Shown here piece by piece: positions 51,401 through 57,400 of a DNA stretch of 64,000 nucleotides. The stretch is from Eudorina sp. 2006-703-Eu-15. Lineage: Eukaryota; Chlorophyta; Chlorophyceae; Chlamydomonadales; Volvocaceae. Where the stretch lies: NCBI GenBank assembly GCA_003117195.1, contig BDSI01000013.1:1335146-1399145 (forward strand), in the 5' to 3' direction. A program made the translations under genes and the position numbers. The notes under the pieces were generated by a model. That model was given only the letters and a program-made list of their open reading frames with translations, was not told the origin of the DNA and did not search any database. Numbering within the stretch: position 1 is the first letter of the stretch; each line of letters starts with the position of its first letter.

Positions 51401-54400
51401 GATGGCGGGGCGTGTGGGCTGGGACGTGAGGGAGGGGTGTGTCTGGGGCTGGGTTTTATGCGCCTGTTGCACCCTGCCTCCCCTACCCCTACCCCCTCCT
51501 CCCACCCCTACCCCCTCCTCCCACCCCTACCCCCTCCTCCCACCCCTACCCCTACCCCTCCTCCCACCCCTACCCCTACCCCTCCTCCCACCCCTACCCC
51601 TACCCCCTCCACCCACCCCTACCCCTACCCCCTCCTCCCACCCCTACCGCTACCCCTACCCCCTCCTCCCACCCCTACCCCTACCCCTCCTCCCACCCCT
51701 ACCCCTACCCCCTCCTCCCACCCCTACCCCTACCCCCTCCTCCCACCCCTACCCCTACCCCTCCTCCCACCCCTCCTCCCACCCCGCGGCCCGCAGGTGT
51801 GCACTGGGACCCCCCCGAGACGGGTGCCCCCGGGGAGATCGCCTCGGACAAGAAGTACGTGTTCAGATACCCGCGACCACCCAGGTACGGCGTGTTCGTA
51901 CCGCACCGTACATGAAAGGCGGGGCGCTGCACCGCGCCGCGTGCTGGGCGCCGCGGACGGCCGTTCTGGCAGGACCTAGGGATGCCAAACCCTCGGTCTT
52001 TTCCACCCCCACCCCCACCCCCGCTCCCGAGCCCGGGTCAGGTGTGTTTGTCGTACACGACTGTCGCCGTACACCGGCACGCCCACCTCCTCGGCCGCCT
52101 CACCTCTCCGCTTTCCTGGGCCCTGGGGCGCCCTGCCCCCCTGCCCCCATGACGCCCTGGCAGGCCGCGCGCCCTCCGCATCTACGAGTGCCACGTGGGT
52201 ATGAGCAGCCAGGAGCCCAAGGTGAACTCCTACCTGGAGTTCCGGAGGGACGTGCTGCCGCGCATCCGGGCGCTGGGCTACAACGCCATTCAGATCATGG
52301 CGATACAGGAGCATGCCTACTACGGTGAGGGATGGAGGGGGTGAGGGATGGGGGTGTGCGTGTGGAGGGATGGGGGGCCCGAGGGATGGGGGGATGGTGG
52401 GGATGCGAGGGCCGGTCGTTGCGGGCTGGGGCTGGGGGTGGGGTGGGGTGGGGTGGGGTGGGTGGCAAAGGGGATGAAGCGGAGGAGGGCCCTGAAGGGC
52501 TGAGCGATTCCCGCTGCGCAGCGCGCCTGGCTGGGTGCGGCTCATTCTTGATGGGCAGAGGTACGTCCGTCCTCCTGGCCACCGTCGGTTTGGACCCACC
52601 ACCATCATCATCTCATTTCCGCCTCGCTGCCGGCCCGCCCTCCTCCTCCTTCAGACCGGCCCCTCTTCCCCCCCCTCCCCCCCACCGGCCCCCCCCCCTC
52701 CCCCCCCCGGCGCCCCCCCCCCGGCCCCCTCCCCCCCCTCCCCGGCCCCCTCAGGCTCATTCGGGTACCACGTGACCAACTTCTTCGCGGTGAGGTCGGG
52801 GGCAAGGAGGGCGGCAGGGGCGGGGCGAGGTGGGAAAGGAAGGAAAGGATGGAACTCGCGGGCTGGCGGGCGGAAGCTGCTGGACGCCTGAGGGCGCCGT
52901 GGGCCCGGTGCCGATGCCAGCGCGCAGCGGGGGCTCTGATACGGTGCCGACAACTTTAACGGAAACCTTCCAACGGATGGAGTGCGGTGCTGTAGGGGAG
53001 ACATCTCCTCAAGGAGGGACAGCTTGGGGCTGTGGTGGGGGCTCGCAAAGGGCCGCATCTGCTCTGCACACGGGACGCGTGGCGGAGCACCTGTGGCGGG
53101 GTCTGAGGGACGGCAGCTGCCCCACCCCCGGCAGCGCTGTCGGCCAGGGAGCAGGGACCTTGCTCATCCCCCGCTCCCCCTTGCGAGTACTTCCGTCCAG
53201 CGGTTCCCCGTCGCTACTCGATGTTCCCCTCTCAATATGCCTACCAGTTTCCTGCATTCCCTCTCCTGCCCGCCCCCGCTCCCCCCTCCCCCCCCGGGCT
53301 CGCAGCCCAGCAGCCGGTGCGGCACCCCCGAGGAGCTAAAGGCGCTGATCGATGAGGCGCACAGATTGGGCCTGGTGGTGAGGCCAAGGGGGGGGCCAGG
53401 GAAAGGGTCAGGTCAAGGGGGCCGCAAGGGGGAGGACCGGGACTTCTTCAGTCCGCGCGACAGCGACTCTCATACACCAATACACGGCGCAACGGCGCCA
53501 TACGGCACATAGCTACTGCGACACACTTCATTCGGCGACGTCGACTCTGACCAACCGGAGAACTACTCTTCATTGGATGACTCTTCGCGGTTTCGCTGCG
53601 GCATCTTTACTGGCGCAAGGGCGACCGGGCCGGAACGGACGGGGAGGGGTGGAGTCGGGGGCTGAGACTGGGGCGGGGGCCGCAGCGTTGGTTTGTTAGG
53701 GCTCTCACCAATGGCACTACACTGCCGTACTGGGCTATCACCGGGGTATCGGAGGCGGCCAGGCGCCGCCGAGAATGTGTGTGTGGCCCGCCATCCATGG
53801 CAGGGCAAGGGCCCGCTTCGCCCAATCTCAAGCCTTGTCCGGGGCCCCCATCCCACCGCCCCGCATCTGTGGTCCTGGACCTCAGTCTAATGCAATCCCC
53901 GGCCCTATCCCTGGCCCCCCCTCGAAAATGTCTACCAATTTCCTGTACCCCCCTCGCACCTACACGATCAGGTGCTTATGGACATCGTTCACAGCCACGC
54001 CTCCAAGAACACCAACGACGGCATCAACATGTTCGACGGCACCGACGCCATGTACTTCCACGGGGGGCCCCGGGGCTACCACTGGATGTGGGACAGTCGC
54101 TGCTTCGACTACGGTGAGGGCGGGGGGCCAGCAGGGGGAAGGGGGGGCCCTTCATGCGGGCCTTGGTTGGGATTTGAGGGCTTTAGGGTTTTAGGCCGGG
54201 GATGGAGAGGAGTGGAGAGGAGTGGGGTGGAAAGGAATTGACGGAAGGGCACCACCAGGCGCGCAAATTACCCAATCCCGACACGGGGAGGTAGTGACAA
54301 TAAATAACAATACCGGGCGCTTCGCGTCTGGTAATTGGAATGAGTACAATCTAAATCCCTTAACGAGGATCCATTGGAGGGCAAGTCTGGTGCCAGCAGC

Positions 54401-57400
54401 CGCGGTAATTCCAGCTCCAATAGCGTATATTTAAGTTGTTGCAGTTAAGCTCGTAGTTGGATTTCGGGTGGGGTTGTGCGGTCCGCCTCTGGTGTGCACT
54501 GCTCGGCTCCACCTTCCTGCCGGGGACGGGCTCCTGGGCTTAACTGTTCGGGACTCGGAGTCGGCGAGGTTTGGGGTCAGGTGGTCGCCGGGGGGAGGTG
54601 GGTCGGGGGGGTTTCCACAGAGGGGGAAAGCCAAGGGCTGGGCGTGGCGTGTGGGTTGGTGAGCTGCTGCTTGGCAGGGGGAGGATTCGTCCCGCCAACC
54701 CCAACCCCAACCCCAACCCCAAACCCCCGGGGGCCGCCCCAACCAACCACCTCGTCCGCTGCGGATCCTGCTGCCGATGTGTTCTGATCAGGCAACTGGG
54801 AGACGCTCCGCTTCCTGCTGTCCAACTGCCGCTACTGGATGGACGAGTTCAAGTTCGACGGGTTCCGTTTCGACGGCGTCACATCAATGATGTACCACCA
54901 CCACGGCCTGTCGTACACCTTCACCGGTACGGCGGGGGCGGCGGCGGGTGCACCTTCCCCCTGGCCCCCCCCTGACCGCCTCAACCCTCTCTCCCCCTCC
55001 CGCCCCCCCCTCCACACACACACATCCCCAGGTAACTACGAGGAGTACTTCGGGCTGAACACGGATGTGGACGCGGTGGTGTACCTGATGCTGATGAACA
55101 ACGTCCTGCACGACCTCTTCCCCAACTGCATCACCGTCGGTGGGTGGCTGGGTGGTGGGGGCGGGGCGGGGTGGGGTGGGGTGGGGTGGGGTGGCTGGCT
55201 GCCCGGGTCTCCTGCAGGGGCGCTGAGGTGCGGGTGCCTCGAGGGCCGTGCCCTTCCCCCTTTCCCGCGCATTTTACACAGCGCACAGCACCTCCGCTCC
55301 CTTCCCCGGTTGCCCTGGCAGCTGGTCGAGCACGGAGGGTATGCGAGGGTCTGCGCGAGGGCTGGGCGCCGGAAGCGCGTGTGACTGCCCAGACCTACCC
55401 AGGGGGAGGGGGGAGGCTGAGTGGCTGACCCACCCCGGTGGGCTCCTCCTGGGGCACTGCCAGGCGCACCACTGCTACATAACCGCTTCTCGCGGCTCAA
55501 GTTTTCGTTCACACCACCGCGGGCAAGCCCCTAACGACCACCAAGACGAGCGCCGCCCAGGCCGTCCCCATCATCGCCATCGCCATATCCATGATGAAGG
55601 ATATCTATCATCGAGGGCCAATGGCGGCGTCACTCACACTACCGGTGTTGCCCCTGGTGCCGCTGCCGGGCACGGAACGGGGCGTGCGCGGGCGGTTTGG
55701 GGGGGCCCCCGCAGGCGAGGATGTGTCCGGCATGCCCGCCTTCTGCCGGCCCTGGCACGAGGGCGGGGTGGGGTTCGACTACCGGCTGCAGATGGCCATC
55801 GCGGACAAGTGGATCGACATCCTCAAGGGCCACGACGACTTTGGCTGGGACATGGGGACCATCACCCACACGCTCACGAACCGCAGGTGGGCGGCGTGTG
55901 GGGGAGCGCGTGGCTAGCGGAGATGCCCGGACGACCCCCTGTGGGTGTGTGTGTGTGTGTGTGTGTGTGTAGATGTCCTGTGCCGTACACTCGTCTCCCC
56001 TCCCCAACGCAACCCAACCCATGCACCCCATCCATGCACCCCACCCATGCACCCCACCCATGTACCCAACCCAACCCGACCTGCAGGTACGCCGAGGCGT
56101 GTGTGGGCTACGCTGAGAGCCACGACCAGGCGCTGGTGGGGGACAAGACCATCGCCTTCTGGCTCATGGACAAGGAGATGTACCACTGCATGGTGCGTGC
56201 GGAGGACCCGCACGTTGCGGATCGTGTGCTCTCGCCGCCAGCGCGCTCGGGCCGCCCATCCCGGCATCCCCGCCCATCCCCTCGTTCCCGCCCGCCCCTC
56301 CCTTGCCTCCCGCCCGCCCCTTGCCCTCCTCCCCCTCCGCCAGTCCGTCCCCGGCCTGGGTCCCGCCTCCGCCGTCATCGACCGGGGTATCGCCCTCCAC
56401 AAGATGATCCGCCTCGTCACTCTGGCGCTTGGGGGGGAGTCCTACCTCAACTTCATGGGTGAGCGGGAGGAGGGGCAGGGTGGGGGGGGCGGGCCTTGAT
56501 GCGGAGGGGCCGGGCCTTGAATAGTAGGGGGAGGGGAAAGAGAGGCGTGGTGAGGGGGAATGGAGGCGTCGGGCGGCTCTGCGGGTGGCGTTGTGGAGGG
56601 TGGTCCAGCGGGGGGTACTGGCCGCCTCGGGGGGCTACCTGGGGCCGGGAGCGCCCTTCTCAGAATCGCGCTGCTTCTTCGGGGCATGGGCCGGGAGGGG
56701 CACAACCAGGAGTGGGAAATGCGGCGGGCCACCCACCCAGCCATCCACCCAACTACCCATGCCGCTCCCTCCCCCGCACCCCACCCACCCACTCAACACC
56801 ACCCACCCAGGCAACGAGTTCGGCCACCCCGAGTGGATCGACTTCCCCCGCGACAACAGCTACGACCCCTCCACCGGCCGACTCATCCCGGGTCAGCAGG
56901 AGGGGGGCACGGGGCGGGGGAGGGAGACGGGGCGGGTTAAATTGACAAAAGAAATAAACCCGAAGAACGAACCCCGAGACGGGGCGGGGGAGGGGGACGG
57001 GGACGGGGAGGGAGAGGGCACAGCAACGACGAAGCGAGGTGACTGCCGGTGAGGCAGGCCCGCCCCGGCGGCTTGGTACCGAGGCCGCCGGCGGTTAGGC
57101 AATGGGACAGGGCACAGGCGGAGCCACCCCGATCGGCAGGCCCCGCTGTGCTGTGGGGCGCGTGTGCCCGTGTGTGCAGAGCCCGTATGTACCGGTCGGT
57201 GGTAAGGAGCCGGCAGGAGCGCATGCCATGCCATACCATGGTATGATGGAGGGCGTAATTGGTCCCGGGCGTAAATGCGCATATGACAGTAGCTGCCCGG
57301 TCCCAGCCCAGGACGGCGGGGGTGGGGGTTCCATACCCGGGCGATGCGGGTGGGGGCCTCTGAACGCTGGGTCCCGTGATGGCTGAACCTGCCGCCCGCC

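Follow-up and report, generated by a model that had tools for sequence, protein, structure and literature searches.

How a fragment of 18S rRNA sequence, with its two parts in reversed order, came to lie within an intron of a starch branching enzyme gene is the question raised by this locus of Eudorina. The window (i.e. the whole stretch of 64,000 nt that was analysed, C13:1335146-1399145) was compared with the host rDNA and with the complete assembly of 181,203,499 bases in 3033 contigs. BLAST of the entire window against two host rDNA loci detected matches to the insert and to no other part. Within the 64-kb window, the sole Rfam match at gathering threshold was to SSU_rRNA_eukarya (RF01960; 54304-54420, 7e-32), which falls within the second piece of the insert. 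Window 54231-54571 consists of 341 nt of host nuclear 18S rDNA in two pieces whose source order is reversed. The first-pass annotation had described 31 nt from near the 926 site fused ahead of about 316 nt covering the 530 loop and V4, and alignment to the host 18S agrees with this description (Table 1). The two host 18S pieces share one orientation and overlap by the 6 nt of CAGGCG, which are counted once in the insert length (i.e. 341 = 31 + 316 - 6). Positions in the host 18S refer to the majority consensus of an alignment with 13 rows, representing 12 distinct copies because two rows (L004 and L013) are one copy on C2909. The first piece was 100% identical to two of the six host rDNA loci covering the site and 93.5-96.8% identical to the other four, whilst the second piece ended at 54571 in all seven host rDNA loci aligned. 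Both source stretches are still present in host 18S copies, so the donor was kept.

Table 1. Positions of the insert, its host intron and the other rDNA fragments of the assembly (positions without a contig name are those of the window)
Feature	Position	Strand	Evidence or remark
Branching enzyme exon upstream of insert-bearing intron	53972..54113	+	peptide match; 91% identical in paralogue on C32
Host intron, 678 nt, GT-AG, phase 1	54114..54791	+	read from sequence; paralogue intron at same position
926R-type primer site, broken	54225..54244	-	6/20 mismatches, all under primer 3' end
Insert piece 1, 31 nt	54231..54261	+	host 18S positions 1131-1161, 31/31 identity
CAGGCG, 6 nt common to both source sites, at join	54256..54261	+	alignment to host 18S
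Insert piece 2, 316 nt, 530 loop and V4	54256..54571	+	host 18S ~425-742
515F-type primer site, intact	54390..54408	+	0 mismatches
3-nt deletion site in A run of piece 2	54446..54448	+	source TTAAAAAGC, here TTAAGC
Branching enzyme exon downstream of intron	54792..54926	+	peptide match; 85% identical in paralogue on C32
18S fragment	C24:948111-948199		92% identical
28S fragment	C28:789061-789393		98.5% to best copy
18S fragment	C61:671690-671859		98% identical
18S fragment	C3:216573-216646		96% identical

Divergence of the insert from its source was examined past the join, where zero substitutions were observed relative to the host 18S consensus. The insert lacks three nucleotides of a stretch of five A and has an additional G. 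As the Rfam consensus (i.e. GGAGGG) has the same G, the host rDNA contigs, which are unpolished, probably undercount this residue, leaving the A-run deletion as the one convincing difference. The zero substitutions suggest that the insertion is young. This age is not firm because short-read correction is described for Eudorina assemblies in the accessible part of one report (PMC6123790) and, if short reads corrected this assembly, the abundant reads from rDNA could have erased older differences.

The host gene appears undisturbed by the insert. Without it, the intron would measure 337 nt, and the exon junction (DYG/NWE) is in frame and fits the match to branching enzymes of known structure. 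A 314-residue peptide, obtained by joining by eye the exons on both sides of the intron, contains an alpha-amylase domain, and its residues 1-311 could be aligned with rice chain 3amk_A (3.1e-148). A longer reconstruction of 674 residues matched a Volvox africanus protein most closely (91%), followed by Chlamydomonas schloesseri (88%). The phase and boundaries of the intron, together with the protein match, bear out the earlier claim that the flanking exons splice in phase. A paralogue on C32 (L029, C32:361000-364500) exhibited exons of 85-91% identity, and its intron at this position is shorter, with no rDNA detected by BLAST. Together with L030 (C38:362500-365000), it makes two branching enzyme paralogues in the genome besides the gene with the insert. 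When the assembly was searched with the right flank of the insert, matches were confined to the locus itself and to paralogous exons on C32 and C38, none of them an insert-free allele. The motif TTTAGGGTTTTAGG, seen after the fact, occurs once in the window (54182-54195), 35 nt upstream of the insert. It resembles TTTTAGGG, which we take to be the volvocine telomere repeat, and may be a second repair scar or chance.

The sequence of the join bears on the origin of the insert. The annotated 6-nt microhomology is present at both source sites and exceeds chance (P = 0.0015), this being the proportion of 18S position pairs, drawn at random 200,000 times (pairs <20 nt apart left out), with an overlap of at least 6 nt, for the single junction scored. 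A second motif, GGAAGG, is also common to both source sites upstream of CAGGCG at a slightly different spacing, indicating that a switch would have occurred between partly similar stretches. The junction was present at one site in the 181-Mb assembly with up to three mismatches allowed, and further rDNA chimeras with the same junction, for which the first-pass annotation had allowed, were not found in the genome. A shared-junction repeat family (i.e. an rRNA-derived SINE or similar) is ruled out by this single occurrence. With the same tolerance of up to three mismatches, no host rDNA copy in the assembly contained the two pieces contiguously.

Given this structure and overlap, microhomology-guided template switching or joining of rDNA pieces, as first proposed, stays the best reading. 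The insert probably arose when a DNA break was repaired with rDNA and the template was switched during copying, an event of a type already known. The branching enzyme intron would have suffered a double-strand break, which was then mended with short DNA copied from host rDNA. During this copying, the nascent strand would have left one 18S stretch, re-annealed at CAGGCG, either 731 nt away or in another rDNA unit, and copied a second 18S stretch before the chimera was joined into the break. Such an insert would have no function of its own and would be removed together with the intron. Events of this type are documented in yeast, where rDNA acted as the donor at induced breaks in two of eight insertions in growing wild-type cells, insert sizes were biased to ~45-300 bp, and nearly 4,000 of ~33,000 insertions in 16-day stationary cells held two to four pieces (PMC10802722, a preprint, from its accessible sections). 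In the available text of a second study (PMC11724301), complex insertions constituted 5-7% in several mutants, microhomology-mediated switching was put forward to explain insertions of two pieces that share a locus, and donors from rDNA were frequent in Dna2-deficient cells and very few in rad27 mutants. A simple analogy with the latter study is weakened because pairs of pieces that come from a single locus and have one orientation were very rare there, a figure from which rDNA was excluded.

An alternative is that a ready-made chimeric donor was captured as one contiguous fragment, such that the switch predates the insertion. The donor could have been an 18S circle (425-1161) with its closure at CAGGCG, or an rDNA unit that carried a tandem duplication, and the observed arrangement (i.e. 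1131-1161 then 425-742) is the order expected from one stretch of either form. Rearranged rDNA does occur in the assembly, as one copy on C1818 has LSU 1681 joined to SSU 864. This explanation is nevertheless doubtful, as the junction was found nowhere else in the assembly even when A/C and T/G exchanges were allowed, in rDNA that is incompletely assembled and in parts N, and the C1818 join differs from that of the insert and may be an artefact.

Whether captured or copied, the C13 insert is not a lone event and is one of several scattered rDNA fragments in this genome. Seven short rDNA probes (two mismatches allowed for the 926 and 515 probes and three for the other five) revealed four more fragments of 74-333 nt with 92-98.5% identity in contigs of 0.7-2.5 Mb. 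Counting matches in contigs known to be large, the tallies were 2/39 for the 926 probe (C13 and C24), 1/15 for the 515 probe (C13), 0/16 for the 18S middle probe, 1/9 for the 28S probe (C28), 0/23 for the 18S 5' part, 2/26 for the 18S 3' part (C61 and C3) and 0/1 for a 56-nt 28S probe that was too strict for unpolished copies. Among the five fragments, only the C13 insert exhibited a two-piece build, the other four being single pieces. One more weak match of 28 nt was present 2.9 kb from the C24 fragment (E 0.003) and was attributed to chance. When the C28 stretch served as the query, the rDNA part alone matched elsewhere among the 41 matches listed (40/143 candidates scored). A crude inverse-probability estimate from the five fragments, computed with a C13 length of 347 (true length 341), put their number genome-wide at ~43 (i.e. 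~40).

The C24 fragment (L018:3612-3700) covers the same 926 region as the first piece of the C13 insert, in sense orientation. By eye it looks to sit in a GT-AG intron, a setting read from the GT/AG context because Pfam analysis of ten open frames (longest chosen) around the four other fragments gave one WW domain near C3 and no more. A tentative extension of the break-repair reading is that host rDNA may be a persistent donor seeding the chromosomes with 18S and 28S fragments, with the C13 insert fresh enough to show the inner template switch. If it is true that rRNA, not rDNA, was the template, these scars would record RNA-templated break repair.

An RNA template also features in a further explanation, namely that a LINE-type enzyme reverse-transcribed 18S rRNA and jumped between two rRNA sites, leaving a tailless chimeric retropseudogene. 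No poly-A tail was observed in the 25 nt downstream of any of the five fragments, the longest A runs being 1 (C13), 1 (C24), 3 (C28), 2 (C61) and 4 nt (C3). Likewise, none of the five had a convincing target-site duplication as compared to random flank pairs, of which fractions of 0.09 (C13), 0.97 (C24), 0.16 (C28), 0.59 (C61) and 0.62 (C3) contained an equal direct repeat. The repeat at C13 is TGGGGT, located near both ends of the insert; it would fit a short target duplication, and 9% of random pairs reach this length of 6 nt. Fragments that lack tails and standout direct repeats favour break repair with copied or captured rDNA over LINE-type insertion of the ordinary kind. Template switches during LINE reverse transcription are known to generate chimeras (PMC2104539), and fusions of 28S rRNA with LINE-1 have been reported in which the rRNA part has a median length of 269 nt (n = 18; PMC13174262). 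Against this route, the five fragments have no LINE part in addition to lacking an A tail or significant duplication, and, its own locus apart, the flank of the C13 insert had matches only in paralogous exons, making a LINE-type origin improbable.

Several oddities of the rDNA contigs were observed. An apparent second, divergent 18S type (79-83% in matches; 73-75% over the gene) was rejected as an artefact, as nearly all substitutions were A to C when scored on the contig plus strand of eight loci from seven contigs. Plus strands of the A-poor rDNA stretches (L014 and L019-L025; contigs C315, C333:1-9000, C390, C352, C1514, C1700 and C2023) contained 0-29 A in 5-10 kb, and the other end of C333 (L011) had a normal A content. 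Rfam detected no SSU match at gathering threshold in the two A-poor loci scanned (L019 and L021). Palindromic contigs with 18S in both orientations close together (L012:3042-5650, L020:5730-9997 and L022:3329-8501) have a structure as from missed sequencing adapters. The C1818 join (L038, ~5088) links 28S 1681 to 18S 864 with a 1-nt overlap and represents a rearranged copy or a chimeric contig. Misassembly is unlikely as the source of the insert, and it is very improbable that chimeric reads, or read correction with rDNA, introduced it: the rDNA part of the assembly is of low quality (with palindromic copies, numerous indels and stretches with nearly every A read as C), but the insert has a cleaner sequence than the rDNA contigs and lies inside a 1.63-Mb contig between the halves of one intron, a position that a scaffolding error would not give because both halves flank it and the exons join in frame.

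The functional consequences of a repair-derived insert were considered for primer sites and RNA structure. Odd amplicons had been predicted from the two universal primer sites. When matched with what we take to be the 515F and 926R primer sequences, the 926R-type site was broken at the primer 3' end (6/20 mismatches) and located upstream of the 515F-type site, with the two sites pointing apart, and this prediction is not upheld. An rRNA-like structure had also been suggested; the predicted fold of the insert weakly beat those of shuffled sequences (z -1.92; 5/100 shuffles equally good), a marginal result that adds no demonstrated function. No function is indicated for the insert.

The C13 insert is real, its anatomy is as first described and the kind of event is already known. 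Titles and abstract openings of the literature covered, which left most subscription papers outside, contained no description of this insert. It alters no known system and makes a modest addition as one of several rDNA fragments in the genome. In practical terms, repeat masking, rRNA read removal and read-based correction can go astray where 18S sequence lies inside a protein gene.

Fragments of rRNA pseudogenes that are scattered through the nuclear genome have been described for human. The Eudorina fragments are like these in being partial rDNA away from the arrays and in differing in age, whereas here one fragment combines two pieces whose order is reversed and occupies a well-defined green-algal intron. 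Chimeric retrogenes made by LINEs, as described in the accessible parts of PMC2104539 and PMC13174262, likewise have two transcript pieces fused by a template jump, and rRNA can participate; unlike them, the C13 insert contains no part of an element and lacks both a tail and a convincing target-site duplication. As compared to templated insertions at double-strand breaks, the insert differs in being a natural event known from one assembly and in its same-orientation pieces, which are very rare in the available text of PMC11724301. It is like these insertions in being a short nuclear fragment with an rDNA donor, at least two pieces and microhomology at the inner join. The insert offers a clean case from nature of rDNA inserted in two pieces whose join has been preserved.
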